DNA of 64,000 nucleotides, taken from NCBI GenBank assembly GCA_963576725.1, contig OY755241.1:26200449-26264448 (forward strand), given 5' to 3'. This DNA comes from Azorinus chamasolen (Eukaryota; Mollusca; Bivalvia; Cardiida; Solecurtidae). Position 1 is the first letter of the stretch. Each line of letters begins with the position of its first letter. Position numbers and translations under genes: made by a program. This document shows, piece by piece, positions 1 to 34,115 of the stretch. A model generated the notes under the pieces. The model made no database searches. It was not told where the DNA came from and saw nothing but the letters and a program-made list of their open reading frames with translations.

Positions 1-1007
1 TTTTCAATAGAAACATATAGTAAAACTTTGAAAATCTTCTCCTCTGAAACCAGAAGCTTCCTATCTTTCATAATTGGCACATAGCATCATGTTCAGGTCC
101 TCTACAAAAGTTATATAAATTATGGCCCTGGGGTCAAATTGGCCCCGCCCCAGGGGTGGGCAGTTTTCAATAGAATCATATAGTGCAAACTTTGAAAATC
201 TTTTCTCTGAAACTGGAAGGCTCTCAGCTTTCATATTTGGCACATAGCATCATGTTCAGGTCCTCTACAAAAGTTATATAAATTATGGCCCCTGGGTCAA
301 AATTGGCCCCGCCCCAGGGGTGGGCAGGTTTCAAAAGAAACAAATAGTGAAATCTTTGAAAATCTTCTCCTCTGAAACTGGAAGGTTCTCAGCTTTCATA
401 TTTGGCACATAGCATCATGTTCAGGTCCTCTACAAAAGGTATATTATTAATGGCCCCGGGGTCAAAATTGGCCCTGCCCCAGGGGTGGGCAGTTTTCAAT
501 AGAAACAAATAGTGAAATCTTTGAAAATCTTCTTGTCTGAAACTGGAAGGTTCTCAGCTTTCATATTTGGCATAGAGCATCATGTTCAGGTCCTCTACAA
601 AAGTTATATAAATTATGGCCCTGGGGTCAAAATTGGCCCCGCCCCAGGGGTGGGCAGTTTTCAATAGAAACAAATAGTGAAATCCTTGAAAATCTTTTCC
701 TCTGAAACTGGATGGTTCTCAGCTTTCATGTTTGGCACATAGCATCATGTTCAGATCTTTTACAAAAATTATATAAAGTATGGCCCCTGGGTCAAAATTG
801 GCCCCACCCCAGGGGTGGGCAGTTTTCAATAGAAACAAATTGTGAAATCTTTGAAAATCTTCTTCTCTGAAACTGGAAGGCTCTCAGCTCTCATATTTGG
901 CACATAGCATCATGTTCAGGTCTTCTACAAAAGTTATATAAAGTATGGCCCCGGGGTCAAAATTGGCCCCACCTCAGGGGTGGGCAGTTTTCAATAGAAA
1001 CAAATAG

Positions 1008-1630
1008 AATGAATGAATGAATGAATGGTGTTTTACGGCCCATCGACACTGATGGTCATATAGAGCCGAATAAATAATGTAAATAAAACTATATAATGAA
1101 ATCAAATAAAGACAATCTCACTAGATTATGTAAATGTCAGTCCAGATCAACAGGATTGTAAATAAAATAAGGACAAAACATAATCGACATTCTAAAAATA
1201 AACCTTTTAAATTTTAGAATATATATTAATGGCTTTTAAAAAACCAAATATTTTTGGTATTTCTACCAGCTCAAACAGTTCCCTCAGGGAATCTGCTTGA
1301 AAGAACCTATCTCTGATTAAGATTAAATCAGGACATTCAATGAGAATGTGCTGAATTGTATAAGGCTCAAAACAAAATAAACATTCAGGTTGAACTTCAC
1401 CTTTCAGTAAAAATGAATGAGTTAAAAAAGAATGTCCAATTCTTATTCTCGCCAATACGACCTCATCACGCCGAATTGGCAAGCATGAACAAAAATGTTC
1501 ACCTAAAATAGGTTTAACAGCATGGAGCTTGTTATGAATTTCCTCATTCCAAGACTCCTGCCATTTATATAGAATATGTCTAGTAATTTGTGGTTTGAAA
1601 TCCGAATACGGTAATCTCATATCAGATTCA
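1008..1630 (-). mobile_element. 5'-truncated LINE family B insertion
   Basis: The insertion starts at its (GAAT)n tail and the family-B 3' end (complement of GGCCGTAAAACACCATTC). It is flanked by a 15-bp target-site duplication, AATAGAAACAAATAG, at 993-1007 and 1631-1645. It is homologous to the longer B copy at 19625-21008. Confidence 0.9.
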
Positions 1631-1641
1631 AATAGAAACAA
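1207..1641 (-). pseudogene. LINE-B ORF2 C-terminus (post-RNase H region)
   Basis: This is the last ~140 residues of a non-LTR retrotransposon polyprotein. A region containing KWQESWNEEIHNK leads to RRDEVVLARIRIGHS and then to the zinc-knuckle-like CLFC...H...C (CLFCFEPYTIQHILIECP), typical of the tail of RNase H-bearing I-superfamily elements. The first few residues come from host repeat sequence at the insertion junction. It lacks RT and RNase H and is a dead 5' truncation. The same stretch occurs, frameshifted, near 20450-20833. Confidence 0.85.
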
Positions 1642-2211
1642 ATAGTGAAATCTTTGAAAATCTTCTCCTCTGAAACTGGAAGGCTCTCAGCTTTCATATT
1701 TGGCACAAAGCATCATGTTCAGGTCCTCTACAAAAGGTATATAAATAATGGCCCCAGGGTCAAAATTGGCCCCGCCCCAGGGGTGGGCAGGTTTCAAAAG
1801 AAACAAATAGTGAAATCTTTGAAAATCTTCTTCTCTGAAACTGGAAGGCTCTCAGCTTTCATATTTGGCACAGAGCATCATGTTTAGGTCCTCTGCAAAT
1901 TGTTTATAAATTATGACCTTGGGGTCAAAATTGGCCCTGCCACAGGGGTAGTAGACAGTTTTCAATAGAAACATATTGAGAAAACTTTGAAAAACGTCTT
2001 CTCTGAAACTGGAAGGTTAATCTCAGCTCTCATATTTGGCTCATAGCATCGTGTTCAGGTCCCCTACAAGCTTTTCTAAATTATTTCCCTGGGGTCAAAA
2101 TTGGCCTGCCCCAGGGCCGGCTAGTTCTCTATAGAAACATATAGTGAAAACTTTGAAAATCTTCTCCTGATTGTCTGGTGAGCGCTTCAGGGCCATTCTG
2201 GCCCTCTTTTT

Positions 2212-2865
2212 AATAAAAGCATCACGAATAAATGATTCTAAACGGACAAGGTGATCGTTTGTACTGCGTTGATTTCTAAAACCACTTTGAAAGTTAGTTA
2301 TAAGATTGTTGGATTCCAGAAACCAAACAAGACGTGCATTAATCATTCTTTCAAGTGTTTTACAGACACAACTAGTAAGAGCGATAGGGCGATAATTAGT
2401 AGGATTAGAAGCATCCTTACCTGGCTTTGCAACAGGGACAACAATGGCCTCCTTCCATGAAGGTGGAAGGACACCAGAATCCCAGATATGGTTAAAAATT
2501 GATAAAAGATATTGCAAAGATACATCGGGTAAATGTTTTAAAAGCTGATAATGTATGTCGTCTGGTCCTGTAGCAGTATCAGTTGACTTGCTCAAAGAAT
2601 CCCTGAGCTCTAATAAAGAGAACGGTTTGTTATAATTTTCATCATTATTTGATTTGAAATTTAGTTTCGATCTTTCTTCTTTTCTTTTAAATGATTGGAA
2701 AGTTTCTGAATAGTGAGATGACGATGAATTTTTAGAAAATGTTTTAGCCAAAGTGTTAGCAATATCTTTTTTGTCAGTTATTGTATCATTATTCTGCTTC
2801 AGATGAGAAACTGTTGAAGATTTATTTTTGCCGTTAATTTTCCTTACCATTTCCCAAACATTCAA
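2212..2865 (-). pseudogene. LINE-A reverse transcriptase, N-terminal part
   Basis: About 215 residues of a non-LTR reverse transcriptase. The sequence shows TATGPDDIHYQLLKHLP, then LPPSWKEAIVVPVAKPGK, NYRPIALTSCVCKTLERMI and the fingers motif FQSGFRNQRSTNDHL. These match RT motifs upstream of the catalytic palm, which this copy lacks. Translation past about 2200 runs into TR-165 sequence and is spurious. It lies inverted relative to the 3' part of the same insertion. Confidence 0.85.
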
Positions 2866-2866
2866 C

Positions 2867-3376
2867 TAACTTCATGCCATCAAACCAACTATTGGTGATT
2901 CTCTGTTAAATTATAGAGCTGTTCGAAGAGATGAGGTGGTCGTAGCTCGCTGTCGCATCGGACACTCTCATATTACTCATTCCTATTTACTAAAGCGCAA
3001 AATTCAACCAGAATGTGTCTTCTGTCAAGAGCCATACACAGTAAAACATTTTTTGATTGAATGTATTGACCTTTCTATAATAAGACAAATACTTTTCTGT
3101 TGATTCTATGCAACAGTTATTTAATACAGTTCCCTACGAGAATATAATTTCGTTTTTGAAAGAGACTGGTCTTTATTCTAAAATATAAATAACCAGTTAT
3201 ATTATTTTATTTCTGTATTCCTTTCTACATTTTCATCTTCGTATATTTTAATGATTTACATACTTGTTGAACGAGATTTTTTATTGATTTTCATCGTTTC
3301 ATCATAATTTTCGTCATTGGCGCTATATGACCTACTTTGTGTCGCGGTGCCGTAAAACCCAACTCACTCACTCACT
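2867..3376 (+). pseudogene. LINE-A 3' end (C-terminus and 3' UTR)
   Basis: The sense segment matches the end of the family-A reading frame: RAVRRDEVVVARCRIGHSHITHS, the zinc-binding tail CVFCQEPYTVKHFLIEC, then a degraded end. The 3' UTR and the (CACT)n tail follow. Compared with the copies near 6780 and 12460, a base is missing at about 3090 (ATAAGACAAATAC against ATAAGACATAAATAC), which shifts the frame. Confidence 0.8.
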
Positions 3377-3432
3377 CTCTTTTTGTGTTGCAATTTCTGC
3401 TCTCAGGGGATCACCTCCCTTCAGAATTTATT

Positions 3433-3705
3433 TCACCTTTCAGTAAAAATGAATGAGTTAAAAAGGTATGTCCAATTCTTATTCTGGCCAATACGACCTC
3501 ATCACGTCGAATTGGCAAGCATGAACAAAAATGTTCACCTAAAATAGGTTTAACAGCAATGTTAACAATAAACGTCATGCCGTCAAACCAACCATTTGTG
3601 ATTCTCTTTTAAATTAAAGATCTGTACGAAGAGATGAGGTGGTCGTAGCTCGCTGTCGCATCGGACACTCTCATATTACTCATTCCTATTTATTAAAGCG
3701 CGAAA
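3433..3705. mobile_element. Chimeric LINE-B/LINE-A fragment left of the Naiad element
   Basis: 3433-3560 is antisense family B (post-RNase H coding region). It passes directly into sense family A from about 3559. The two share the junction bases ACAGCA, as expected for a microhomology-guided template switch. The A segment is cut at 3705, where the Naiad pseudo-LTR begins. More antisense B sequence (10293-10348) lies right of the Naiad, so that element interrupts or was captured with this mosaic. Confidence 0.7.
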
Positions 3706-3921
3706 TTGGGCGCCCATAAACCGGTTTAACCCCCCGGTGACTTTTGTTACTGACCGTTCCAAGGCGGTACTTCCATCTTCCTTCTATTGTATGTTTGTTT
3801 TGTCTGTGCGTCTCTTGTTGTTTTTTCTACTTATGTACTTTTGCTGTTTCCTTGTGTTGCTGTTCGGGCGAGTGTTTGTTCTGTATGTGGTGTTTCCTGC
3901 ATGACTCATTTTTGTACTTTT
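3706..3921 (+). repeat. Left pseudo-LTR of the Naiad element
   Basis: It starts TTGGGCGCCCATAAACCGG and ends at ...TTTTTGTACTTTT. It is nearly identical to 10075-10292, with a 2-bp indel in a GTCT run and a few substitutions. Penelope-like elements commonly carry such direct repeats because of tandem or partial-tandem integration. Confidence 0.9.
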
Positions 3922-4169
3922 ATCATCACAACAGTGTTGCTTGTGCCGTGTGGTGGCCGTAAAGTCTCCCCGTACACGTAATCGAAATTCTCTTGCAGGA
4001 TATGCAAGTAACATACACAACTCTCATTCGCCTCTTACATCATCATAAGTATGTCATGCACCTCGTGGTAGGTGTTATGTTCACCAACAATCGATGCACT
4101 TGGTAGCTACACTAATGTAATTGACGTGTTGATGAACACAATACAGGTGCCCCTCTATCACTTTCCAAT

Positions 4170-4971
4170 ATGAATAAAGTTAAAATACCTCGAATAGAAC
4201 TAAGAGCTTTAAATATGCAATCCGTGTCGTCTGTACAAGTACCCAGAAATATTTCTAATTTCTCTTCTCTTCAACCTTTTGTTCGTTTAAAACAACTTAA
4301 TCTTCAGTCGGCATCATCTTTTCACATACCATCTCTTTCTATAAGTAAATGTTTTTTCAATGGACCAAGAGTTGTACTTTCACCTTTAAAATCTGTTAGC
4401 CAAAATGTTTCTTCTATTCGTAAACGGTCCTTATGCAGGCGACACAGAGTGTATCCAATTATCCAAAAGTGCTTTGCTAAGAGGTGCATATGTTGTAGTA
4501 ACATTTCTTGTAATTCCACTATAAAATCTACAGTTAATGGTAGAACATTTAATGTCAAGATAAACTCAGACGTTGATTGTACTACTACTAACGTTATTTA
4601 TGTTTTAACTTGAAACGCGCCTAGTTGCGGTATACAATACGTAGGACAAACAGGACGTGCTTTGAAAACTCGATTTCGTGAGCATGCATTTCAGTGTCGA
4701 AATCGTAAACTAAACAATTTTTTATACCAACACTTTCGGAAATCTGGCCATTCTTTTAAAGATGTTTTAGTACAAATTGTTGAGCATATAACATATGATA
4801 AGGAGGCGACTAGTAGCTTTAAATCGAAAGCTAGATTTATATCTGAATTAAATTGGATCAAAAAATTGCAAACACCTTTTCCTTTAGGACTGAATGATAA
4901 TATTTACCAGACTGGAAATATTTCAAAAGAACCAGATATAGATATTTTTTCAATTTTCTCTATTTGAAAAC
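4170..4971 (+). pseudogene. Naiad N-terminal GIY-YIG endonuclease region
   Basis: The frame opens with MNKVKIPRIEL, has a cysteine cluster CICCSNISC (about residues 110-120), and then the endonuclease core: NVIYVLT, a TGA (4611-4613), and APSCGIQYVGQTGRALKTRF followed by REH. The spaced IYV...YVGQT plus R...H is the GIY-YIG signature; it continues through QHFRKSGHSFKDV to ELNWIKKLQTPFPLGLN. The frame is open across the TGA, which sits where relatives have the cysteine after IYVL. This fits selenocysteine recoding rather than decay. A second TGA (4965-4967) precedes a basic stretch that resumes after the LINE insertion (KRKSRSHGIRKNGNIKRKSR, from 7102). The endonuclease would nick target DNA for integration. 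The start codon is chosen as the first ATG of the frame and is not certain. Confidence 0.85.
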
Positions 4972-7093
4972 ATGATACGACATGGAAGTACGGAATTATG
5001 AAAGACCTGAAAGATCTAGGTCTGAAAGGTAGACTACCTACTTTCATTGCGGATTTCCTTTCTGACAGAAATTTTAAAGTGCGAGTTGGGGCGACACTCT
5101 CTGACACACAACAGCAGGAAGAGGGTGTCCCTCAAGGAAGCATTTTATCTGTAACTTTATTTGGTTTAAAAATTAATAATATTGTCAAATGTTTAAATTC
5201 AGGTGTTGACTGTTCTTTGTATGTAGATGATTTTTTAATATGTTATCGCTCCAAAAATATGCATACTATTGAAAGACAACTTCAACAATGTCTCAACAAA
5301 CTTGAAACATGGAATAATGAGAATGGCTTTAAATTTTCAACGTCAAAAACGCAATGTGTTCATTTTTGTCAGTTACGAAATTGTCACCAAGACCCCGTTT
5401 TAAATCTTAATAATATTCAAATCCCTGTGGTTGATCAAGCCAAATTTTTAGGACTTATATTTGACAAAAAGTTAACATTCATACCTCATATTAAGCATTT
5501 GAAAACAAAATGTCTTAAATCTCTTAATCTTCTTCGAGTTTTAGCTCACACTGACTGGGGAGCTGATCGGAAAGTGCTGCTGCGCCTTTACCGATCATTA
5601 ATTCGCTCTAAACTGGACTATGGAAGCATTGTATATGGATCAGCTAGAAAGTCTTACCTGAAGATTCTTGACCCAATTCACCATCAAGGACTTCGGCTTT
5701 CCCTTGGTGCTTTTAAAACCTCACCAATCGAAAGTATTTGAGTAGAAGCAAATGAACCATCTTTATACATTCGAAGAGAGCAACTAGCTCTTAATTATGT
5801 CACTAAAGTGAAGGCAAATCCTACCAATCCTGCTAATGAAATAATTTTTGAACCCAAATATGAAATGCTTTATGAAAGGAAACCTAATGCTATTAAGCCT
5901 ATCGGTCTCCGTCTTAGATCGGCAATTGACGAGGCGGGTCTGAGAATGGACTCTGTTAGGCAACATAAAGTTTCAAACATTGCGCCATGGACTATCAAAC
6001 AACCTAATGTTTTCTTACATCTGGCTTCAAAAAAAAGTCTTCTACAGATGCACTGGAATTTCAATCCGAATTCGAAGAACTTAAATCACAGTATCCTGAC
6101 CATATTCCCATATACACTGATGGTTCTAAAGATGAAAACAAAGTCGGTTGTGCATCTGTCAGTAAATTTCATACCTCTAAAGTAAGACTACCCGACAAAT
6201 CTTCCATATTTACAGCTGAAGTTCAAGCAATTGACCTTGCCCTTCGATTCATATCGGTGCACAATATGAACAAATACATAATTTTTTCAGACTCGCTCTC
6301 TGTTCTTCAAGCGTTGAACAACAGAAATATGAATAATCCATTAGTTCAGCAAATTCTTCTTAAACACCATAAATTATCTCTGTCAAACAATATTGTTTTC
6401 TGTTGGCTACCTAGTCATGTTGGAATTCGGGGAAATGAAGAGGCAGATAAAACGGCCAAGTCATCCCTGAATCTGAATGAGGCAGTTTTCAAAATACCAT
6501 ATACTGATTTTAAACCATTGATTAAACAGCATACATGTTCCAAATGGCAGGTTTCTTGGGACAGCAATGTTAACAATAAACTTCATGCCATCAAACCAAC
6601 CATTGGTGATTCTCTGTTAAATTATAGAGCTGTTCGAAGAGATGAGGTGGTCCTTGCTCGCTGTCGCATTTGACACTCTCATATTACTCATTCCTATTTA
6701 CTGAAGCGCGAAATTCAGCCAGAATGTGTCTTCTGTCAAGAGCCATACACAGTAAAACATTTTTTGATTGAATGTATTGACCTTTCTATAATAAGACATA
6801 AATACTTTTCTGTTGATTCTATGCAACAGTTATTTAATACAGTTCCGTACGATAATATAATTTCGTTTTTGAAAGAGACTGGTCTTTATTCTAAAATATA
6901 AATCTGTTTAACCAGTTCTATCATTTTATTTCCGTATTCCTTTCTAAATTTTCATCTTCGTATATTTTAATGATTTACATACTCGTTGATCGAGATTTTT
7001 TATTGATTTTCATCGTTTCATTATAATTTTCGTCATTGGCGCTATATGACCTACTTAGTGTCGCGGTGCCGTAAAACCCAACTCACTCACTCA
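4972..7093 (+). mobile_element. LINE family A, 5'-truncated 2.1-kb insertion in the Naiad
   Basis: The 12-bp direct repeat CTATTTGAAAAC at 4960-4971 and 7094-7105 brackets the insertion. It runs from within the RT palm to the family 3' end, GGTGCCGTAAAACCCAACTC followed by (ACTC)n. This is the longest A copy in the window and serves as reference for the shorter ones. It lies exactly between the endonuclease and RT domains of the host Naiad. Confidence 0.95.
4998..6901 (+). pseudogene. LINE-A ORF2: RT palm, RNase H, zinc tail
   Basis: The RT palm shows EEGVPQGSILSVTLF and the catalytic box LYVDDF. The RNase H domain shows YTDGSK, IFTAEVQAIDLAL, IIFSDSLSVLQ and WLPSHVGIRGNEEAD, which supply the four acidic metal ligands. 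The tail has CVFCQEPYTVKHFLIEC and the frame ends at TAA 6899-6901. RNase H plus this tail suggests the I superfamily (Nimb-like); that clade name is an inference. Lesions: TGA at 5739-5741, a poly-A frameshift near 6035, and TGA at 6671-6673 where other copies (e.g. near 12345) read GGA. The APE endonuclease and any ORF1 are absent through 5' truncation. Confidence 0.9.
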
Positions 7094-9786
7094 CTATTTG
7101 AAAACGCAAATCTCGATCGCATGGCATTCGCAAAAATGGTAATATTAAACGAAAATCTCGTTTGAAAATGACTCTTCTTGATCTACATACTTTACGCCTA
7201 ACTTCGGGTAAACATGCCATGCTTTCTAGACGTTCCTCCTTATCTATATGTTCATTATAAGAAATTGACGAGCAAGCCGATAAAATTATTTTTCTATCAG
7301 ATCCTCTCATAGGAACGGCTAGCTTGATACAAAGCTTTACTTTACATGTTCTCAGATCGCACATCGACAAATTATCTGAACACCAAAGATTCTTCTTGAA
7401 AATTCCTTTTATTAATAAAGGTATTGATTTTATTGACCTCCAAAGTATTTTTAGAGACAAAAATGTAATTGACACTATTCCTAAATACGTTAAAAATACA
7501 GAACCACCTATCATCTGCTACAAATATAACAAACCCATCAGAAATACAATTTTCAACTATAATAAATATTAATGATAATATTCCTGATAATTGAGATTGC
7601 GCCACCTCAAAATGTTGCTATTCTCCGGCTGGTCATGTGATTACTGGTAATTTTGAGATAATTAAAGATAAACGTCTACGATCTCTTTTGAATAAAGGTC
7701 CCAAATATAGAATACCATCCTTGATAGATTTTAACTCTTGTCGAGTTCAGATTGCGGAGGCTTTACAAAATTTTAGTATTAAATGGTGTCGAAGAGAACA
7801 TGTTGAGTCTAATGCCCTTTCTTGTTGGAAAAAACTAATTTTTGATATAATTGATAAACGCATTTCCTTTTACAGCTCTAATAAACACCTTCTTCCACCT
7901 AAACCTAGAACTTCTTTTAGACATCTTAAAAAGGGTTTACAGGATTTCCATTCAAAATACGTTTTTGTTCCTGCTGATAAGGCATCAAATAATGTGATTA
8001 TTATTTGACGATTACATTATATCGATGTCTTGAAGCAGGAAATTATTAATACCAAGTCATACATTTCAGTTACCACTGACGAAAAGACCAACATTTCAGA
8101 CCATGTCAAAAAGTGTGAACAATTTGGAACCGATATTAAAATTACACAACAATGTATTGGTTACCAAAACTACATAAAAAACCATATAAAGCGCGTTTCA
8201 TTGCAAATTCTAGTTCATGTACAACTACTAAATTGTCTATACTTTTGACTTCTTGTTTAACGAAGGTAAAGGAACATGTAAAATTCTACTGTGATAAGAC
8301 ATGAAAATTCTGGAATAAATCTCTTCTGGTCTATTAAGAACTCTTCAGAAGTCTTAAACAAACTTAAGAACAAAAGGTATCTTGCATCCACTGTAAGCAC
8401 GTACGATTTTTCTACTCTGTACACAACTCTTCCTCATATTTTGATTAAGGATAAGCTTACTAATTTGATCCAGAAAGTATTTGCCCGAGAAAAACCATTA
8501 TTCTTGGCATGTAATGCTGAAAAAGCTTTCTTTACTGACGAGCAAATGAAATATTACACCAATTGGACTTGCTCAGAAGTTTGCGAAACACTAACCTTTC
8601 TTTTGGATAACATATTTGTACGTTATGGGAATGCTATATACCGTCAGGTAATTGGTATTCCTATGGGTACGAATTGTGCACCACTTGTCGCAGATTTGTT
8701 TTTGTACTGCTATGAGAGAGATTTCAAGTTAAGTTTGAATCCTCAATCACAAGATGTTATAAAAGCCTTCAATGAAACTTGTCGATATTTGGATGATATT
8801 TTTAACTTAGATAACCCTTTCTTCGATGCTCTGATTCCTACAATTTATCCTAAAGAACTCAAATTGAATAAAGCTAACCCGTCCGACAATTATGGAGCGT
8901 TTCTTGACCTAGACCTTAAAATTAATTATGGACTGATTTCTTCTAAAATATATGACAAAAGAGACGATTTTGATTTTAATATTGTAAATTTTCTCATCTT
9001 GACGGGGATGTTCCCTGCACTCCATCTTACGGAGTTTATATATCTCAACCGATTCGTTTTGCTAGAGCTTGTTCATCTATTGACGATTTTAACAGTCGAA
9101 ATCTCATTTTAACTGAAAAACTGCTTAAACAAGGATATAGATACCATAAACTAAGAAAAACATTCTCTAAATTTTACTATCGAAATCTCTCGCTTATTGG
9201 CAATTACAAATGTAATCTCAAGGTGCTTCTGCGACATGGTATTTCACATCCTGAATTTTATGGTGATGTGATTTACAAACTTCGTAAAATTATTGGACAT
9301 ACCCATTTTCTCACTTTGTTCATCAAATATATAAAACAATTCATTAAAAAGTGAGTGAGTGAGTTGGGTTTAACGTCCGACCAACAGTATTTCAGTTATT
9401 TGCAGACGGCACCCGCATGAGACAAGTTATAGTGCTGCCTCACTGAAATACCCCTGCCGCGGGCACATGGCAAGGGCATCCCACCCAGTCACATTATCCT
9501 GACACCGGGCCGACCAGTCCTAGAACTACACCTTTTAATGTCGAGCACAGACAAGGGAGCTACTAGTACCAACTTTTAACGACTTTTGGTCTGTGGCGGC
9601 CGGAGATCGAACCCACGACCTTCCGTACCGCAGGCGGACGCTCTACCACTGAGCCATGCGGTCGGTTTCATTAAAAAGGGATATGATCCTGTAGTACTAC
9701 AACATACTGCATGTTTGGTTGTGAACCCTTTTACAGTTAGCAATCACGCTGGCCTCTTTGCATGTACGCCGACAAGAAAGGTTTAG
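7094..9786 (+). pseudogene. Naiad CxC linker and reverse transcriptase
   Basis: After the second TSD copy the frame continues as KRKSRSHG..., then HQRFFLKIPFINKGIDFIDL and PIICYKYNKPIRNTIFNYNK. The CxC region follows (TGA-GAT-TGC at 7592-7600, where Cys-Asp-Cys is expected) with AGHVITGNFEI, KGPKYRIPSLIDF and FVPADKASNNVIII. A TGA at 8006-8008 precedes RLHYIDVLKQE, where relatives read Cys-Arg-Leu-His. Next come WLPKLHKKPYKARFIANSSS, motif A (TYDFSTLYTTLPH), motif B (IGIPMGTNCAPLVADLFLYC), the catalytic YLDD and the thumb. The frame ends as ...CTPTRKV at TAG 9784-9786. Lesions: TAA at 7258-7260 and frameshifts near 7572, 8160, 8290 and 9000. The SINE at 9352-9666 splits IKQFIKK from GYDPVVLQHTACLV. 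Confidence 0.88.
9352..9666 (-). mobile_element. tRNA-derived SINE with LINE-A-like tail
   Basis: On the minus strand the element begins with a tRNA-like head. Box A (GGCTCAGTGGTAGAGC) lies at about 9640-9656 and box B (GGTCGTGGGTTCGATCTC) at 9603-9620. It ends in GTTAAACCCAACTCACTCAC. The 12-bp TSD TTCATTAAAAAG occurs at 9340-9351 and 9667-9678. The terminal AAACCCAACTCACTC matches the LINE-A 3' end, which suggests LINE-A enzymes mobilise it. A 47-bp fragment of the same SINE lies at 30239-30285. Confidence 0.9.
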
Positions 9787-9849
9787 TACTCTATGAAGGC
9801 GACCTCTTGAATCCAAAAATGGAAGGAGAACGTCGGATATCTGTACTAT
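9782..9849 (+). promoter_or_regulatory. SECIS-like hairpin (type II) after the Naiad stop codon
   Basis: Helix I pairs TAGTAC (9784-9789) with GTACTA (9843-9848). The core has ATGA at 9793-9796 opposite GGAT at 9835-9838, giving the U.U, G.A and A.G non-Watson-Crick quartet of eukaryotic SECIS elements. Helix II pairs GGCG (9798-9801) with CGTC (9831-9834), and CTCTT (9804-9808) with AGGAG (9824-9828), around a 2x2 mismatch. The conserved AA is at 9810-9811, 13 nt after ATGA. A small helix III, TCC/GGA, caps the loop AAAAAT, which is the type II arrangement. The TAG stop codon lies inside helix I. Function: it would recruit SBP2 to decode upstream in-frame UGA as selenocysteine. Confidence 0.8.
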
Positions 9850-10074
9850 TTCATTTTTGTCGTACCCTTTATTACTTTTCTACAGTTACTCTGTTTGCAG
9901 CTCAATCATTGATTACACTAGCGATAGGTGGATACAGTATGTTCAATTAAATGTTTTTTTTGTTATACATGCACTTTACCACTGTATTTGCTGTCGCGGT
10001 TGTTGTAGATTAGTCGGAGAGGGGATACGTTTATTTACACTGTCTTTTAGGATGGGGATGGAATAAGTGTGAGG

Positions 10075-10292
10075 TTGGGCGCCCATAAACCGGTTTAACC
10101 CCCCGGTGACTTTTGTTACTGACCGTTCCAAGGCGGTACTTCCATCTTCCTCCTATTGTATGTTTGTTTTGTCTTTGTGCGTCTCTTGTTGTTTTTTATA
10201 GTTATGTACCTTTGCTGTTTCCTTGTGTTGCTGTTCGGGCGAGTGTTTGTTCTGTATGTGGTGTTTCCTGCATGACTCATTTTTGTACTTTT
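10075..10292 (+). repeat. Right pseudo-LTR of the Naiad element
   Basis: Near-identical to 3706-3921. It begins TTGGGCGCCCATAAACCGG after a 3' untranslated stretch (about 9850-10074) with no recognisable gene. Right of it lie 56 bp of antisense LINE-B (10293-10348) and a scrap of TR-165. Confidence 0.88.
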
Positions 10293-10385
10293 GTTATGAA
10301 TTTCCTCATTCCAAGACTCCTGCCATTTATATAGAATATGTCTAGTAACTTTTGTAGAGGACCTGAACATGATGCTGAAAGAATG

Positions 10386-10646
10386 TGAGTGAGTGAGTGA
10401 GTTGGGTTTTACGGCACCGCGACACTAAGTAGGTCATATAGCGCCAATTACGAAAATTATGATGAAACGATGAAAATCAATAAAAAATCTCGATCAATGA
10501 GTATGTAAATCATTAAAATATACGAAGATGAAAATGTAGAAAGGAATACAGAAATAAAATAATAATAATAATAATAATAGAACTGGTTAAACAGATTTAT
10601 ATTTAAGAATAACGACCAGTCTCTTTCAAAAACGGAATGAATGTAG
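10386..10646 (-). mobile_element. LINE family A 3'-end insertion
   Basis: An antisense copy of the 3' UTR and (CACT)n tail of LINE-A, with a (AAT)n run at about 10558-10578. The 10-bp TSD TGAAAGAATG occurs at 10376-10385 and 10647-10656. Only the last few codons of the ORF are included. Confidence 0.85.
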
Positions 10647-10734
10647 TGAAAGAATGAATAGAGCATAGACCACTGGAACTTGTATTAATTCTTTGGATGC
10701 TAGAGGCAGATTCTCCCACCACTAATGACCTATG

Positions 10735-10802
10735 CAAACAGTTTGGATTCAGATCAGGGACCACATAATGTGGGGCCTGATCTGATATCCAAATTGTTTG
10801 TA
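10735..10802. repeat. Foldback hairpin (MITE-like)
   Basis: An imperfect inverted repeat: CAAACAGTTTGGATTCAGAT is mirrored by ATCTGATATCCAAATTGTTTG around a loop containing CACATAATGTG. It resembles the palindromic core of the TAACCCTTTCC MITE but is a diverged version. The rest of 10657-11120 shows no gene. 10950-11090 is similar to 60950-61095, another dispersed repeat. Confidence 0.7.
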
Positions 10803-11126
10803 AATGAGACTGAACTTCTGAAAAACTTGGAAAGTGTGTAGTGGGATTATATAAGAACTCACTCTGACTGGTCTGAGCTCTGCGGCTGATATATTAAGGA
10901 GAAACCTTTAGGCTGTCGTTTCTGACGTGAAGAAGACTGTACACACAGTGCAGGGCTAATTTTAACCAAAGAACTATGATACTTATAAAACCCATAAAGT
11001 TATGCTAAGTAAATCTATACACCAAATATCTAAGCTCTGGGACATGTAGTTTCTGACCAGAATACTTTTAAAGTTTTTCCTATGCAGAACTAGTGATCCT
11101 ATGGGCTGTTTAAGTAGTCAGCTTAA

Positions 11127-11515
11127 AAAAACTGGCAATCCCTGGGGTGAGACAAATTTTTACCCTAGGGGCATAATTTATATAACTTTTGTAGAAGCCC
11201 TGAAGTTGAAGCTATGTGCCAAATATGAAAGCTGAGGACCTTCTAGTTTTAGAGGAGATGATGTTAAAAGTTTTCACTATATGTTTCTATTGAAAACTGA
11301 AAACCCCTGGGGCAGGGCCAATTTTGACCCCAGGGGTATAGTTTATATTACTTTTGTAGAGGACCAACAGATGATGCTATGAGCCAAAGATGAAAGCTGA
11401 GAACCCTGTAGATTCAGAGGAGAAGATTTTTAAAGGTTCAAATTGTTGACGACTGACGAAGCACGCCGATGGACGACGGACATCAGGCAATCACAAAAGC
11501 TCACTCTGTGCCCCG
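11127..11515 (+). mobile_element. Truncated TR-165 element, right end
   Basis: One and a half diverged core units, then the typical end block: TTCAAATTGTTGACGACTGACG, a GAC-rich run, CATCAGGCAATCACAAAAGCTCAC. It is cut before the terminal hairpin is completed, near 11505. Confidence 0.75.
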
Positions 11516-11601
11516 GATCTATACTGGTTTCAAGTTTGGGTGTTTTTTTCCATATTTGCGGTATTGTTATGACAAATTCAGTACCATTTGGCTTTACTTT
11601 T

Positions 11602-13693
11602 TAGCTCACCAGAGCACAAAGTGCTCAGGCTGAGCTTTTGTGATCACCTGTTGTCCGTCGGCGTGCGTCGTTGGTCGTCAACAATTTGAACCTTTAAAAA
11701 TCTTCTCCTCTGAATCTACAGTAATCTCAACTTTCATCTTGGGCACATAGCATCATATTCAGGTCCTCTACAAAAGTTATATAAATTATGTCCCTGGGGT
11801 CAAAATTGACCCCGCCCCAGGGGTGCCTTGTTTTCAATAGAAACATATAGTAAAACTTTGAAAATGTTTTATTCTGAAACCAGAAGGTTCTCAGCTTTCA
11901 TAATTGGCACATAGCATCATGTTCAGGTGCTCTACTAAAGTTATATAAATTATGGCCCTGGGGTCAAAATTGGCCCCGCCCCAGGGGTGGGCAGTTTTCA
12001 ATAGAATCATATTGTGCAAACTTTGAAAATCTTCTCTGAAACCGGAAGGTTTTTAGCTTTCATATTTAGCACATATCATCATGTTCAGGGTCATGTTGGA
12101 ATTCGGGGAAATGAAGAGGCAGATAAAACGGCCAAGTCATCCCTGAATCTGAATGAGGCAGTTTTCAAAATACCATATACTGATTTTAAACCATTGATTA
12201 AACAGCATACATGTTCCAAATGGCAGGTTTCTTGGGACAGCAATGTTAACAATAAACTTCATGCCATCAAACCAACCATTGGTGATTCTCTGTTAAATTA
12301 TAGAGCTGTTCGAAGAGATGTGGTGGTCCTTGCTCGCTGTCGCATTGGACACTCTCATATTACTCATTCCTATTTACTAAAGCGCGAAATTCAGCCAGAA
12401 TGTGTCTTCTGTCAAGAGCCATACACAGTAAAACATTTTTTGATTGAATGTATTGACCTTTCTATAATAAGACATAAATACTTTTCTGTTGATTCTATGC
12501 AACAGTTATTTAATACAGTTCCGTACGATAATATAATTTCGTTTTTGAAAGAGACTGGTCTTTATTCTAAAATATAAATCTGTTTAACCAGTTCTATCAT
12601 TTTATTTCCGTATTCCTTTCTACATTTTCATCTTCGTATATTTTAATGATTTACATACTCGTTGATCGAGATTTTTTATTGATTTTCATCGTTTCATTAT
12701 AATTTTCGTCATTGGCGCTATATGACCTACTTAGTGTCGCGGTGCCGTAAAACCCTACTCACTCACTCACTCACTCATGTTCAGGTCCTCTACTAAAGTT
12801 ATATATATTATGGCACTGGGGTCAAAATTGGCCCCGCCCCAGGGGTGGGCAGTTTTCAATAGAATAATATTGTGCAAATTTTGAAAATCTTCTCCTCTGA
12901 AACCGGAAGGTTTTCAGCTTTCATATTTAGCACATAGCATCATGTTTAGGTCCTCCACAAAAGTTATATAAATTATGGCCCCGGGGTCAAAATTGGCCCC
13001 GCCCAAGGGGTGGCCAGTTTTCAATAGAAACAAATCGTGAAATCTTTGAAAATCGTCTTCTCTGAAACTATGTACATGTTCAGGTCCTATACAAAAGTTA
13101 TATAATGTATGGCCCCGGGGTCAAAATTGGCCCAACCTCAGGGGTGGGCAGCTTTCAATAGAAACAAACAGTGAAATCTTTGAAAATCTTCTTATCTGAA
13201 ACTGGAAGGCTCTCAGCTTTCATATTTGGCACAAAGCATCATGTTCAGGTCTTCAACTAAAGTTGTATTAATTATGGTCTCGGGTCAAAATTGTCCCCGC
13301 CCCAGGGGTGGAGTTTTCAATAGAAACAAATAGTGAAATCTTTGAAAATCGTCTTCTCTGAAACTGGAAGGCTCTCAGCTTTCATATTTGGCAGGGCATC
13401 ATGTTCAGATCCTCTTTAAAAGTTATATAAATTATGGCCCTAGGGTCAAAATTGGCCCTGCCACAGGGGTGGGCAGTTTACAATAGAAACATATTGAGAA
13501 AACTTTGAAAATCTTCTTCTCTGAAACTGGAAGGTTAGTCTCAGCTTTTATATTTGGCACATAGCATCATGTTCAGGTCCCCTACAAGTTTTTCCCAGGG
13601 CCGGCTAGTTTTCTTTAGAAACATAGTGAAAACTTTGAAAATCTTCTCCTCTGGTTGTCTGGTGAGCGCTTCAGGGCCATTCTGGCCCTCTTG
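11602..13693 (-). mobile_element. TR-165 element, complete ends, interrupted
   Basis: In plus orientation it opens with TAGCTCACC and the hairpin GAGCAC/GTGCTC, then the GTCGT-rich block. A 165-bp tandem core follows, and it closes with GGTGAGCGC and GGGCCATTCTGGCCC before CTCTTGT. A LINE-A fragment sits inside at 12090-12774. The ORF-like frame at 12014-12577 is part host repeat and part LINE. Confidence 0.85.
12090..12774 (+). mobile_element. LINE family A, 5'-truncated insertion
   Basis: The 11-bp TSD TCATGTTCAGG is at 12079-12089 and 12775-12785, taken from the host repeat unit. Coding sequence runs from the end of RNase H (HVGIRGNEEADKTAK) through the zinc tail to TAA at 12575-12577, then the 3' UTR and (ACTC)n tail. 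The coding part is intact here and keeps GGA at the site mutated to TGA at 6671. Confidence 0.92.
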
Positions 13694-13762
13694 TTTCTTT
13701 CATTTACGCAACGTCATTACCGAAAGGTTTTTCATTCATTTTTTGGCAATTTTTTGCCATTT

Positions 13763-14016
13763 TTAGCTCACCAGAGCACAAAGTGCTCAGGGTGAGCTTT
13801 TGTGATCGCCTGATGTCCTTCGTCGTGCGGTGTGCGTCGTGCATCGTTCCTCGTCAACAATTTGAACCTTTAAAAATCTTCTCCTTTGAATCTATAGAGT
13901 TCTCAGCTTTCATATTTGGCACATAGCATCATGTGAAGGTCCTCTACAAAAGTTATATAAATTATGCCCCTTGGGTGAAAATTGGCCCCACCCCAGAGAT
14001 GGACAGTTTCTTAGAG
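13763..14016 (-). mobile_element. Truncated TR-165 element
   Basis: The hairpin end block (TAGCTCACCAGAGCAC, GTCGT-rich stretch, ACAATTTGAACC) is followed by one core unit that breaks off after CCCCACCCCAGAGATGG. It lies about 70 bp from the previous element in the same orientation. Confidence 0.75.
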
Positions 14017-14308
14017 CAGGCTGCTGTTTCAGCTAATTCAGACTGACCATTATTTACTGGGAGACTACTAGTACACACTCCAGAAAAATGCAGCTGCAAT
14101 ATTTTTCACTGTGCTGAATTAGCCTCGCGTATGCCCAGGACCTCTTTGCTGTTTGATGTGTTGTAAACATCATGCAGGTTATTATGGAGGTCAATTGGTG
14201 TCTAGCATAATTTTCTCCAGTCCCCTTTGCACTCTGAGCAATTACTGTCTGCAAATAATGTTATCTGCTGCAAAAGTTGTTTCCTTCCATATTTTTAAAA
14301 AAAACAAG

Positions 14309-14345
14309 AGGGCCCAGAAGGCCCTATATCGCTCACCTGAGAATG
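14309..14345 (+). mobile_element. Solo TR-165 left end
   Basis: Only the terminal hairpin AGGGCC-CAGAA-GGCCCT and CGCTCACC are present. The loop differs from other copies while the stem is conserved. Confidence 0.6.
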
Positions 14346-14918
14346 TGGGGTATTAGGCATTGAATTTTATAATTGAACACGAATGGGCTATTGTGGCTCT
14401 TCATTGCTGATTTGAACCAAATGTTTTAACGGCATTAGTTTGTAGGAATCATAAATTTTGTTATCAAGACAATCATGAGAAGTATGTATAGTATATATAA
14501 GATTAATGGTTGAGGAAATATTTTCATGACAGGCATTGTTTTGAAAGAACACGTTACAAAGAGTTATGGAGATTGTGCAAAACTTTTTTGCTTTCATTGC
14601 ACTACTGAAATTACAAATATGGTTCAGACAGAATGTAGGGTCTTTGAGAAACAGTACAAACAAGTGAAAGGAAATCAGCCGACCTATAGTTCTTTTCAGC
14701 GCATACTAGTATGGGACAAACCGACCTAATATTGTGCAATATTCCTTCAGGTCTGGGCAGCGACTCTTGGATATTGTTTGAAAATGTGATCGATAGATTA
14801 GTCCACAATATAACATCTTAACCCTTTATCTCATAGATTATTTTAGATCCAATCACTTTAAATGCTACTGAAAAAGGAGCATTAACTAGAGGAAAGGGGA
14901 AATTTTGAATTTTGAAGG

Positions 14919-14976
14919 CATTGTGATAAATAGAGCGGTTGCTTGTTTAGGAGCAAATGCTCTATTTATCACAATG
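14919..14976. repeat. Palindromic MITE-A copy
   Basis: CATTGTGATAAATAGAGC is mirrored by GCTCTATTTATCACAATG, an 18-bp perfect stem around a loop of about 20 bp. Related copies are at 28136, 32099 and clustered at 59335-60785. Confidence 0.85.
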
Positions 14977-15727
14977 GTTTCAACAGGATTTTTTTACAGA
15001 GGCTAGTAAAGATGAATTTATTATGGGCTATAAAAATTATTGAACAACAGTGTCAAATCAGGTATTTTTTTTTCACAAACTGTGGCAAAAGTAAACAATC
15101 AGTGACAAAACAAAACATCCATAAACATTGCAAGAAATCAATAAGAGCAAAAATTTGAAAAAATACATTGACTATACTGTGTCTATATTGGTATGATTTA
15201 TTTTAAGCATAACATAGTGAGCAAGATTTGTTTGTGAAACACCATGTTTTTTATGTTAATATACACCTAAAAATGTTTGTTTCCAAAAGTTGCACATAGA
15301 TGCCAAGTTTGAAGTATGTCAAATGGTGACAAAATTAATGATAATTTGAATTTGACCTGTAAATTGACATTGACGTTGATGATTAATTTGGAAATTAATA
15401 GGTAAGTCACTCCGAAAAAGTATGCTTCCTGAAAATGCACATGTATGATAAGTGTGATGCAATGGGTACAACATTGTTGCCAACGTTCAACAAAAACCAA
15501 TTAACAAACAGACAGGGCAAAAACAATATCTCCTCCTCCCTCCTTGAAAAGGTGGAGGGTTGGGGGTGGGATGTTAAACATTTAAAAAAAGAAAATTATT
15601 CATTTCAAAGTGTGTTTTTTCCATAGATGATATAGCAGAAGCATTCATTATAAATCACATTGGATGTGTTTCAAAATTAGAGGCGATAGTAGTCAAAAGT
15701 ATGAAGTTATTGAAACATGAAAACTGT

Positions 15728-15972
15728 CAACCCTTTACCTGTTCTATGTTTATTCCAAATTTCAATACCTACTGAATATTAATTTTTTTCTGTTATAAAG
15801 AAGTATGGAAGGTGGAACATTGTAGACATTTTAGAAAGCAAATTAATAGATCTATCAATTTCTTTTAGCAAACAGAGTAGACCCCGATCAGATGGTTCCT
15901 GTAGGAGCCATCTGATCTGGGTCTTCTCTGTTTGCAAATGTGGAAGAAACGTTTATATGAGGGAAAGGGTTA
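15728..15972 (-). mobile_element. MITE-B (TAACCCTTTCC-ended)
   Basis: The ends are CAACCCTTTACC and GGGAAAGGGTTA. Inside, near 15870-15940, is the palindrome GCAAACAGAGTAGACCCC...CTGTTTGC with a GATCAGATGG/CCATCTGATC core. It is the same element as 27769-28000, in reverse. Confidence 0.75.
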
Positions 15973-16837
15973 AAGAATTTTACATTTTATCTCTGATAGT
16001 GATGACATACATTATATGGGTTGGTTTATTTTTTTAAATAATTTGGAATTGTCTTCTCTAAAACTACAAGACACAGGTTAAACTGATGCACACCAAAATC
16101 AGCTTGTTGTTAATGATGATCATTAATTGGGCTCTATGATCTGAGCTAGAAATTGGTTTCACAAGATATATATTTTCACATGTTAAAGGTTTTGAAGAAG
16201 GATATTTTTATAAAGTGAAAAGAAATTCCAGTTGAAATCTACCTATTACATTTCATATGCAAAAAACTTACTAAGAACTTAACTAAGTTACTAACAGTGT
16301 TGTTTCAATATTACCGTTCGATGGTTATTGGACTCCTCAGAGTCTTTAAAGTTAAAATGAAATCAGTAAGTTCGAACAGGAGCTATTCCTTAATATCAGA
16401 AATGAATGCAAAAAACCCCAATGCAGCACAGTTTTTACTTTACATTAATCGAGCTGGGTTTTAAGGCACAATACTTTATATGTTATATGGCGTAGAGACA
16501 AGAGAAAAGTTGCTGGATCTATATCTCAATTACTCTGAGATAAAAATAAGGGATATGAATGTAGGAAATTAATATTTGCTGTATTATTTTAGATTCAGAA
16601 ACTAAAGTTTACATTAAGGTCTAATTTGAAGATGTCTTGAATGAGTATTGTTAAATGTTATTTACATGGTTATCAAACTTGACCAAGGTGAAATGGTGAC
16701 AAACATGCTGAGAAATTTGGTGTAGCTATCACAAATACTTTCCAAGACGGTCAGACAATTTTTTCTAGATGTGTGTCCGGAAATACAGACAAGGACAACC
16801 ATATATGCCAGTACTATGTGGTACTATGTATTAAAGT

Positions 16838-18930
16838 TTATGAATGTATATGCAGGGCAAATTTGATAGAAAATCCAAGTTTGTAACACCTACTACTCAT
16901 GTAACAGGACCAAAACACATAAGTACTCAAAGTGAAAGAGGTGACGAGTCTGTAATGCTTGCCTACAAAATACATGACATAACATCTGTTTTTTGTGTTT
17001 TTATCTATGGCAAGTATCAATTCCAAAAATTTAAATGGAAGGATTTGCAATACCAACTTTATGTTTCATGCCGAAATGACTGAAGAAAATCCAGAAAAAA
17101 AGGAGATAATTCTGCAATGCCTAGTGCTTAACACATGACAATTACAGCTTGTACATCATTTACTCATGGTTATTATGTACACTAAACATGAATTGAATGA
17201 ACTTTCAAACTAAATGAGGAGTTAGTGACACAGGGTGTGTACAGGGTACAGACTTCCAGCACTAAAAGTTTATAACTGTTCCATGATAAATATCAATTAT
17301 CCATGATAACAAAATGTAACTGATGTTCCAGTAATTGAAAGCTATGTAGTAGTGATTTATTATCGGAGTCAATGTAAACAAAATATCGTCCTTAAAATTA
17401 ATGACACCACTGAAAAAGCGACAGACATTTTTTAACCGAAAAAATTGTACTGAATTTCATTTTGAAGCGCAATATTTCTGTTATTTCATTGTTTTTAAGG
17501 TTATTTCTCAGAATTCCAGTAATATTTCCGGAATTTTCCATGATTGCTCCTTTAAAAATTGCCATTTCAAAATTCCATTGACTATTTGATATTTTCCCGG
17601 AACAGGATTTTTTCTCTATGATGTTTCAGGTCTGTACGCACCTTGTGACACCAACTCCCCAGGTTTGTGCAAAAATGACAAAAAATACTCAAAATGCAAT
17701 GCAAAAAACTAAACACATGTGTCTTGCACATATACCATTTTTCGTTATTACAATGTGAAGCAGTAAACATGAAAATTGCATCATGCACATTATTCATTGT
17801 TATTATGTATGGCAAGTACCAATTCAATAACTTTCTAATTGAAGGAGAAGTGTGCAAAACCAACCTTACGTTTCAAACCAAAAGTATGAGGGGATATGAT
17901 TCTGATGCCAAGCACTAAATACATAAAAAAATTATCTTCTAATCGTGGTTATCATGTATTCAAAATATAAACTTGAATCATTTTTAGAATGAAGGATGAG
18001 TTCACAACAGCAACTTCTAATGTTTTGTGTGATTATAAATGTTGACAGGGTTGCCACAAATTAGAGGAAACCAAATTCTGTGACAATTACCCGTCATAAT
18101 TTCAAATTTCCCAGACGCATTACATTGGAAAAGTTGGTGTTTCCATCATAATTTCTGTAAAACATGAGACTTTAAAATATATCACTTTCATTCACAAGTT
18201 TTTTTTCAAATTCCCTGACAATTTCCAGGCATTTGCCTAGGGCTTTGCCATTTAAATGTGTATGGGGTGCAGAACGCATTTTTAAATTCGACCACCCACC
18301 AATAGAATTTTTTTACTAATGCAAAAGACAACTAGTACTAGTTGTGCAGCGAAACACACCCATGCATAGCTGTTTTTAAAAGTGCTCTCCTGATCCTAGA
18401 TACACATTTAAATGGAACAGCCCTTATATTTAAAATTTCCGACAGTTCCCAACAATTCCCCACTGACTTTGAAAAAAATTGTCGCTGTCTTTTCCCCTCC
18501 TCATGTGTGGCAACCCTGATATTGTATAACAAATATAAGTTAAATAACTTGGACACCAACTCTCTAAGTTTGATGCCCAAATGAGCAACATTTCCAAAGT
18601 TCCTGGGAAGACAATTCTGCAATGCTTGACCTCATGGTAAAAATATGAAAAATTATTCATGCACATTTACCATTTGTGAGTAATATGCATGGCAAGTAAC
18701 GTTGCCCATGTTTCATGCTAAAATAACAAATTCAAGCAGTGGTAAGGACATGGAAATTGTGTCTTTCGCATGTACTATTTGTGATTATTATGTATACGGA
18801 ATATAAAAGCAATAATGTTGATACTGAAAGAGGGATTTGTGAAACATACTACCCATGTTTCATTGTGATTGGATGGACAGACGGATTGACCAACTGTCAG
18901 CTAACCAGAGCGATACCAGTATACTCCTCA
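16838..18930 (+). repeat. Degenerate ~200-bp tandem-repeat element
   Basis: Diverged units share a core like TTATTATGTATGGCAAGTA followed by CCAATTC, seen near 17000, 17800, 18520 and 18790. The right end (about 18870-18930) has GGATGGACAGACGGA and then ACCAACTGTCAGCTAACC, the same GAC-rich end block that closes the other tandem-repeat elements. Open frames here (16838-17083, 17582-17918, 18338-18666) are chance frames. Confidence 0.55.
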
Positions 18931-19465
18931 ATAGAGTTTGCGAGGATATATTATTTTAAAACATCATATCACGTCTGTTTTATCTTTTGGTATTTCAGTG
19001 GAAAATGGTTGTAACTGAGGTTGCAACAGTTTTGCACTGTAATCAATATGCCAATTTCAGAAAAGACTTTAATAAATGCCAATATACTTTTTTATGCGTA
19101 AAATATTAAAAATATTGCAAAACATGTCAACATTGGATGCACTGAGGTAAAATATAACCAACAATGTAAAAAAGAAAATATACAGTTACAAATGTTTTAC
19201 ATTTAGTCTTTTAACCCTTTCCTTGTTGAATAGGTATTTGTAATTTCAATACCTACTGAATAGTTATGGTCAAAATCGTTATAATGGAATATGGCTGGTG
19301 AATACTGTAGCTGATTTAGAAAGTAAAGAAACAGAACTATTGCAAGTTCATGCCACCAGGGGAAAAAGATAATTTCTAATACTGATCTATGAAAGGGATA
19401 GTGTAAAAATTTCAATGTACATGCATTTGGCACTAAATGATAAAAGCTACATTAATAAACAGTTT
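18931..19465. other. No gene recognised
   Basis: AT-rich sequence. A fragment of MITE-B (TTAACCCTTTCC plus AATACCTACTGAATA) lies at about 19212-19270. Nothing else is recognisable. Confidence 0.5.
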
Positions 19466-19624
19466 AACAAGAGCACCGCAAGACGGGGCAATATACGCCC
19501 GAAGGCCGTTCTATAAAATTATGTTGAAAAATAAAGGAGGAGTTAGTTGCACAAGAAATTGCTACCCAAAACTATCAAAGGGCAATAACTCCAGAATGAA
19601 AAATGATATGAGTTATCTCACTGA

Positions 19625-21008
19625 GTTTAGCTTTGGGTGCCTTTAGGACATCCCCTGCTAAAAGTTTATATGTTGAGGCGAATGAGCCATCACTTTACTC
19701 TCGTCGTGAAAAACTATCCATGCAGTATACCTCTAAATTAGCTTCAACCCCATCAAATCCCGCTCATAGAAATGTTTTTAGACCTAAATATCAACGTTTA
19801 TTTGAATCTAAGGAAAAGGTAATTCCACCTTTCGGAATACGTATGAAAAACTGTTTTCAAAATAGTGATATAGATTTGTCTTTAGTTGAAAAGACTAAAG
19901 TTGAATCTATACCACCTTGGACTATTAAACCACCAAAAGTTATTTTTGAACTAACACGGCATAAAAAGTCTGAAACAAGCTCGCTTGAATTCAGTTCTTT
20001 TTTAAATGAAATAATTTCAAGATTTGAAGATTATGAACAACTTTATACTGATGGTTCAAAAGATGATGAGAGAGTCGCAGCTGCCTTTGTGGCTGATGAC
20101 ACAGAGACAAAATTTCGGCTTCCTGATAATGCCTCCATTTTTTCAGCAGAGATCAAAGCTATTGACTTAGCTCTTGATTATATTGCTGGAAAATCATATA
20201 GTAAACATATAATATTTTCGGATTCTCTTTCTGTTTTACAATCTCTGAGTAAATGTTCTTCAAAAAATGTTCTTATTAAAAAACTTGTTTTAAAATACCA
20301 TGAAATGTCTAATTCAAAAGATGTAATATTTTGTTGGATACCTAGTCATTGTGGAATACAGGGCAACGAGAGGGCGGACGTTGCAGCGAAGTCTGCCCTT
20401 GAATTGCCTGAATCTGATATGAGAATACCGTATTCGGATTTCAAACCACAAATTACTAGACATATTCTATATAAATGGCAGGAGTCTTGGAATGAGGAAA
20501 TTCATAACAAGCTCCATGCTGTTAAACCTATTTTAGGTGAACATTTTTGTTCATGCTTGCCAATTCAACGTGATGAGGTCGTATTGGCCAGAATAAGAAT
20601 TGGACATTCTTTTTTAACTCATTCCATTTTTACTGAAAGGTGAAGTTCAACCTGAATGTTTATTTTGTTTTGAGCCGTATACAATTCAGCACATTCTCAT
20701 TGAATGTCCTGATTTAATTTTAATCAGAGATAGGTTCTTTCAAGCAGATTCCCTGAGGGAACTGTTTGAGCTGGTAGAAATACCCAAAATATTTGATTTC
20801 TTAAAAGCCATTAATATATATTCTAAAATTTAAAAGGTATATTTTTAGAATGTCGATTATGTTTTGTCCTTATTTTAGTTACAATCCTGTTGATCTAGTG
20901 AGATTGTCTTTATTTGTTTTCATCATAGAGTTTTATTTACATTATTTATTCGGCTCTATATGACCATCAGTGTCGATGGGCCGTAAAACACCATTCATTC
21001 ATTCATTC
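19625..21008 (+). mobile_element. LINE family B, longest copy
   Basis: A 5'-truncated insertion running from just after the RT palm to the 3' end GGGCCGTAAAACACC and the tail (ATTC)n. The flanks share ATGATATGAG..TTATCTCACTGA (a TSD of about 20 bp with a 2-bp indel, ending at 19624 and starting again near 21009), taken from the TR-150 core. Confidence 0.88.
19633..20833 (+). pseudogene. LINE-B ORF2: RNase H and zinc tail
   Basis: The sequence begins at GAFRTSPAKSLYVEANEPSL, just after the RT domain. RNase H shows YTDGSKDDERVAAAF, IFSAEIKAIDLAL, IIFSDSLSVLQ and WIPSHCGIQGNERAD, so all four acidic residues are present. The zinc tail CLFCFEPYTIQHILIEC continues only after a +1 frameshift near 20630 (SIFTER against SFLLKGEVQ). 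The end is TAA at 20831-20833. Roughly half the residues match family A, so A and B are sister families. Confidence 0.88.
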
Positions 21009-34103: not shown

Positions 34104-34115
34104 ACAGTTGTTGAA

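Follow-up and report, generated by a model that had tools for sequence, protein, structure and literature searches.

The 64,000-nucleotide stretch analysed here (the window; contig OY755241.1 of the bivalve Azorinus chamasolen, assembly GCA_963576725.1, positions 26,200,449 to 26,264,448 of the forward strand) holds a dead copy of a Naiad-type Penelope-like retroelement whose family very probably encodes a selenoprotein: a ~1063-residue endonuclease-reverse transcriptase (RT) in which UGA codons 148, 436 and 574 are predicted to be read as selenocysteine (Sec) by the host machinery, with the help of one selenocysteine insertion sequence (SECIS). The prediction draws on conservation of TGA among copies, homology of the sites to cysteine (Cys), a SECIS-like element with two-sided base-pair changes, and selection on the frame. 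The sequence-only reading that preceded this analysis had placed in-frame TGAs of the Naiad frame, at Cys positions, at 4611-4613, 7592-7594 and 8006-8008. All three are present there, the frame is correct, and the codons are 148, 436 and 574, at which public relatives mostly have Cys, tryptophan (Trp) or a break. The argument that three out of three at Cys is unlikely by chance holds up: the crude chance of three random codons falling on Cys/Sec columns is ~3e-5. The selenoprotein proposal itself is now supported by TGA in other copies, by a diverged subfamily and by a SECIS-like element after the stop codon.

The searched genome comprises 1,723,440,353 bases in 137 contigs. Its COX1, on contig C137, is 94% identical to a record labelled Macoma balthica, 91% to Donax variegatus and 80% to Nuttallia olivacea, values that fit a host among the tellinoid clams. 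A DNA search took in 1366 candidates at first look and yielded 40 scored matches, the window copy among them, both numbers being minimum counts; 20 of the 39 other matches were fetched and together with the window copy make up a set of 21. For the codon tally, blastn pieces of <150 bases or <95% identity were dropped; codon 148 is missing in 9 of the 21 copies (5' end missing or unaligned) and codon 266 in 4. TGT or TGC would be expected in the other copies if the TGAs were private to the window; the 20 others have TGA wherever a site is readable, and the tally, window copy included, is 12/12 at codon 148, 21/21 at codon 436 and 21/21 at codon 574. The remaining in-frame stops (codons 253, 266, 297, 319, 410, 814 and 1027) are singletons, and in three copies all 1064 codons are covered without further stop or frameshift. 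The one in-frame TAA previously remarked on is codon 319, private to the window copy. A fourth TGA, at 4965-4967, is present and in frame as had been said, but it is not a Sec site: all 16 other copies that cover codon 266 read AGA there, and the TGA is an ordinary private mutation. A site-blind scan of open frames finds two TGAs 414 bases apart in 20/20 fetched copies, in the longest TAA/TAG-free frame of 19 copies and the second longest of one; a third TGA lies 864 bases upstream in the same frame in seven fetched copies.

A search with a public relative (P0071) brings out a second subfamily: 8458 candidates at first look, of which 136 copies were scored. By a count made by eye, 129 of these have an open frame of 287 residues, equal to the distance from codon 148 to codon 436, the search output giving the length of the frame but not the kind of its flanking stops. 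The 12 copies that were fetched come from plus-strand rows of the 136 and are not a random sample. They have TGA at codon 137 (12/12), codon 148 (12/12), codon 436 (11/12) and codon 574 (10/10 readable; unreadable in L031 through a frameshift and in L037 through foreign sequence, with L033 counted despite a two-codon deletion just upstream). Codon 137 is Cys in the window's subfamily (Cys in the window copy, TGT in L028). Comparison of a single copy per subfamily along 468 codons gives 72.6% amino-acid identity and 116/60/232 differences at codon positions 1/2/3, as expected for selected coding sequence. Diverged fragments in the fetched loci also carry TGA: at 137 and 148 in L013, at 436 in L013, L016 and L026, and at 574 in L023 and L026.

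Public protein relatives, the alignment of which had been suggested as a check, mostly have Cys, Trp or a break at the same sites. The comparison covers 233 proteins, 113 of them relatives of the endonuclease part and the remainder 120 listed of 3691 relatives of the RT part; many start after a site or fall short of it. At codon 148 there are 5 Cys, 14 Trp and 1 gap, and 7 proteins end just before it; at codon 436, where 35 have a residue, there are 29 Cys, 5 Trp and 1 asparagine, with 34 ending at or near the site; at codon 574 the 12 with a residue divide into 9 Cys and 3 Trp, with 29 ending at or near. Trp stands opposite Cys/Sec in columns 106 (2), 108 (1), 137 (15), 148 (14), 436 (5), 574 (3) and 982 (1), and for column 137 the TGA is seen directly in DNA, in L013 and in the second subfamily. 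The RT-core Cys columns 649-813 show no Trp among the listed relatives, which is weak evidence because the length rule of the search favours unbroken RT pieces. DNA of the relatives was looked for in viral contigs, and none was found; other genome contigs searched gave only L029 and L030, which are distant or short.

The second line of evidence, absent from the sequence-only reading, is a SECIS-like element at 9785-9847 of the window (plus strand). The proposed extent of the feature, 4170-9786, ends correctly at the TAG of the open reading frame (ORF), 9784-9786, but falls short at the 3' side: the feature runs on because the SECIS is needed. Across 45 kb surrounding five copies, Rfam SECIS_1 matches six times at E <= 10, and every match follows immediately on the stop codon of a Naiad; one lies in the tandem upstream copy of L022. 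Scores around the five copies are 23.1-26.0 bits (26.0 in L028) and the window's is 19.9 bits; the latter is listed only in a shorter search, not when Rfam is run on 20 kb of the window at E <= 5. In the second subfamily SECIS_1 scores 20.8-23.2 bits in 5/8 loci fetched for their 3' ends; L047 has the same SECIS sequence by eye, with fewer pairs in its fold, and is unlisted by the Rfam search, and in L046 and L048 the longest frame represents other parts of the element. The predicted fold consists of a helix I from the stop codon, an internal loop that sets AUGA against a GA-containing strand, a helix II, an AAA bulge and a short apical stem. Its core is retained in the 21 copies of the window's subfamily: ATGA in 21/21, AAA in 19/21 and the 3' GA in 21/21. 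The AAA losses are in L012, through a 12-base deletion, and in the degraded element of the window copy, through a base change (one apical AAA base is G). In a covariation set of seven sequences (six distinct) drawn from both subfamilies, 97.4% of cells are paired and five pairs have changed on both sides, compared with zero or one two-sided pairs in a slid-partner control; none of 500 shuffles reaches the pairing or the covariation score. An element of this form, with its two-sided changes, supports a Sec reading independently of the TGA codons.

Set against these facts are a number of others that count in the opposite direction. The agreement of the fetched copies, taken alone, reflects a shared source and not independent retention, because the copies are young and closely similar. 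In the second subfamily one copy reads TTA at codon 436, and the diverged fragments differ at codon 574, with TGT in L013 and GGA in L016. Among the relatives Trp also replaces non-Cys residues, in columns 669 (10), 735 (9) and 684 (5), so that Trp alone does not prove TGA; that Trp at the sites stands for TGA translated by table 4 is presumed, from protein records only. All SECIS_1 scores (19.9-26) lie under the Rfam gathering score of 35, and chance-level matches of other families score alike (ceN44 20.2 bits over the window's element, tsr26 24.7 nearby), for which reason the Rfam score alone is not decisive. The folding energy is just mildly better than that of shuffled sequences (z -1.4 to -2.9), and 25 of the 500 shuffles do reach five two-sided pairs. 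Finally, the two-sided changes amount to a single divergence, that of the two subfamilies, and make good but not deep evidence.

The explanation that best survives beside Sec, at long odds all the same, is readthrough without selenium: the UGAs would be leaky stops at which a near-cognate amino acid goes in, and short products would form alongside a restricted quantity of full-length enzyme. Readthrough of this kind would likewise keep TGA, and with three such gates ahead of the RT core the yield of full-length enzyme could be held down; that the sites are Cys columns, and that a SECIS architecture stands at the expected place in the 3' untranslated region (UTR) of both subfamilies, speaks for Sec. 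Simple inactivation, by which the TGAs would have arisen as plain mutations in an old copy or in a dead master amplified in trans, is exceedingly improbable. The window copy does have its private TGA and TAA, its frameshifts and its two nested insertions; the three TGAs, however, are common to every readable family copy examined, to the diverged subfamily and (as break or Trp) to public relatives, all at Cys columns, the remaining frame is under selection, and a SECIS-like element follows the stop. A reassigned host nuclear code with TGA as Cys or Trp would account for in-frame TGA at Cys positions, and can be dismissed as scarcely credible in view of TGA at few specific Cys columns with the other Cys of the ORF encoded by TGT/TGC (31 codons vs 3 TGA), of the private nature of other TGAs, in copies and in a nested element at 6671-6673, and of the standard nuclear code of bivalves.

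Returning to Sec decoding, the predicted course of events is readily drawn. The single SECIS, its first helix starting at the UAG stop codon, would recruit the host Sec machinery, which would decode the UGA at codon 148 (4611-4613) within the GIY-YIG endonuclease, that at codon 436 (7592-7594) in the CxC-type linker motif and that at codon 574 (8006-8008) at the start of the RT. There Sec would take the place of Cys as ligand or thiol; metal ligand, redox control and near-neutral exchange with Cys are the candidate roles, and a Cys-equivalent ligand or thiol is favoured. From sequence we infer both that Sec is actually inserted and what its chemistry contributes. A further reach, tentative and on balance rather doubtful, is that Sec use is a trait still in evolution: as many as six Cys columns (106, 108, 137, 148, 436 and 574), which fall in the N-terminal part rich in Cys, in the endonuclease, in the linker motif and at the entry to the RT, would switch between Cys and TGA from family to family, and the element would be selenium-gated. 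One SECIS would serve all the sites, and the selenium status of the clam would therefore bear on how much full-length enzyme is made and, with it, on transposition.

Assignment of the element to the Naiad (N-terminal EN+) type of Penelope-like elements follows from domain order, the CxC motif, the pseudo-long terminal repeat (pseudo-LTR) and the absence of a hammerhead. One ORF holds a GIY-YIG endonuclease upstream of the RT. The endonuclease, residues 142-235, is recognized by Pfam (25.3 bits with a cut-off of 22.6; E 1.9e-5), and its structure model matches the catalytic domain of I-TevI (1ln0) in Foldseek with probability 1.00, E 6.5e-3 and a template-modelling (TM) score of 0.74 by target length; the model has a mean predicted local distance difference test score (pLDDT) of 70 over 300 residues, with blocks of ~80-97 over residues 91-230. 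A PDB sequence search with the endonuclease gave three weak matches (best E 0.3), none of them to a GIY-YIG protein. The RT is placed by homology: of 8000 candidates that were scored, 3691 are relatives with E <= 1e-3, over residues 575-1063; the RVT_1 match, 20.1 bits, is under the Pfam cut-off of 29.6, and the mean pLDDT of the RT model is 52. The CxC-type motif lies between the two domains as U-D-C at 436-438, and column 438 is C in 35/35 relatives with a residue there. No hammerhead ribozyme family is among the Rfam matches to positions 1-20000 of the window (E <= 5) or to five loci (E <= 10). Naiad-type elements are not known to carry a hammerhead motif; an insertion-in-fingers domain in the RT and an insertion bias toward microsatellites also belong to the type.

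Craig et al. in 2021 (Mol Biol Evol 38:5005) are said to have described Naiads with multiple Sec in clams and spiders. Sec-encoding Naiads having reportedly been described already, the element is a well-supported new case and not a new kind. It has in common with those Naiads, as reported, the N-terminal GIY-YIG, the CxC-type linker, the C-terminal RT, the pseudo-LTR, several TGAs at Cys and a clam host; what is documented here is the presence of three-site and four-site subfamilies, the Cys/Sec exchange at codon 137 and the two-sided changes in the SECIS. Neither the coexistence of such subfamilies nor the SECIS changes were met in the open-access literature searched, where no title among the matches listed concerns Sec in Naiad or Penelope-like elements; Craig et al. 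may well contain either. Canonical Penelope/Poseidon-type elements also combine an RT and a GIY-YIG endonuclease in one ORF, but in the present element the domains are permuted and TGA occupies the endonuclease site. Canonical-looking endonuclease fragments in the same genome have Cys at the codon-148 position (window 62112; L018 461; L023 5666). The first of these is a plus-strand GIY-YIG piece of a canonical-looking Penelope at 62022-62402, 29% identical to the Naiad endonuclease, with TGC at 62112.

Selenoproteins are few in animal genomes. What the analysis brings into view is a selfish element whose candidate copies number in the thousands at first look (the 8458 above, part of them scored), with three or four putative Sec codons and a SECIS-like element of its own. 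Such elements are easily mis-annotated because public protein records often break or show Trp at the TGA sites. The occurrence in one genome of two subfamilies, with Cys in one and putative Sec in the other at a single site, makes the question of why Cys becomes Sec directly testable. A host protein offers a parallel: a passage in PMC5133445 gives selenoprotein P of human and mouse 10 UGAs and two SECIS elements. Several UGAs are there, as they would be here, served by SECIS elements in the 3' UTR; the differences are that the carrier here is a mobile element, and that its three or four UGAs share the one SECIS-like element found.

The window copy (plus strand) can be laid out from end to end. 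A pseudo-LTR at 3706-3924, which is a 3'-UTR piece of a partial upstream copy standing head to tail with the element, aligns in blastn with the 3' ends of L014, L022 and L028 (95.9-96.8% over 219-221 bases); a pseudo-LTR or head-to-tail piece also precedes the element in L012, L016, L022, L024 and L028, and the other fetched copies have none or are 5'-truncated. The 5' leader, 3925-4169, is included in 97% alignments with L022 (across 3706-4971) and L028 (across 3783-4971). The ORF starts with ATG at 4170, and its first part, 4170-4971, comprises the N-terminal region and the GIY-YIG endonuclease. It is interrupted by a 5'-truncated non-LTR retrotransposon (a long interspersed nuclear element, LINE; 4972-7093, plus strand), identified by Pfam RVT_1 and RNase_H matches (RT and RNase H), by other copies in the window and by a 12-bp target-site duplication (4960-4971 / 7094-7105), through which the private TGA of codon 266 recurs at 7099-7101. 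The TGAs 5739-5741 and 6671-6673 lie in this LINE and not in the Naiad; recoding at 6671-6673 is ruled out, since two further LINE copies of the window read GGA there. The second part of the ORF, 7094-9350, encodes the linker with its CxC-type motif and the RT, with several frameshifts, and is 96.3-96.8% identical to three other copies; the third TGA lies here directly after the residues ADKASNNVIII. A tRNA-derived short interspersed nuclear element (SINE) with a GTGAG tail is nested at 9351-9666 on the minus strand, flanked by an 11-bp target-site duplication (9340-9350 / 9667-9677); its tRNA-like match, 9594-9663 on the minus strand, scores 27.3 bits with a gathering score of 29. The last part of the ORF, 9667-9786, ends with the TAG at 9784-9786 (codon 1064, TAG in all 20 of the 21 copies that are readable there). 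After the SECIS-like element the remaining 3' UTR, 9848-10297, leads to the 3' end of the Naiad near 10292-10297, up to which other copies align. Frame-breaking indels occur at 7 codons across the whole copy, which, with its nested LINE and SINE and its frameshifts, is dead.

Neighbouring repeats and reading frames complete the description. Copies of the 3' part of the LINE (90-99%) also lie at 2868-3374, 10390-10638, 12090-12769, 33027-33622 and 33830-34104, with a common TCAC-repeat tail. More diverged Naiad fragments (81-84% DNA identity) stand beside young copies at L024 7647-8581 and L022 5830-6057 (element orientation), and perhaps reflect clustered insertion or tandem arrays. Several long ORFs on the minus strand of the window, at 34098-40985, are Helitron-like: a Pif1-like helicase with the Walker-type motif AGGVGKS and, upstream, Rep-like and OTU-like ORFs, all labelled from reading the translations and not from a family search. 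Two long hairpins, at 10737-10798 and 15865-15938, have weak microRNA-family scores of 32.4 bits each, far under gathering, and are likely inverted-repeat elements. On contig C137, COX1 (L051 65-1783; 572 codons under table 5) is followed on the same strand by an ORF that reads as ND4-like; this COX1 is 94% identical to one Macoma balthica record and 69% to another, a pair of values that may, as a guess, reflect sex-linked mitochondrial lineages.

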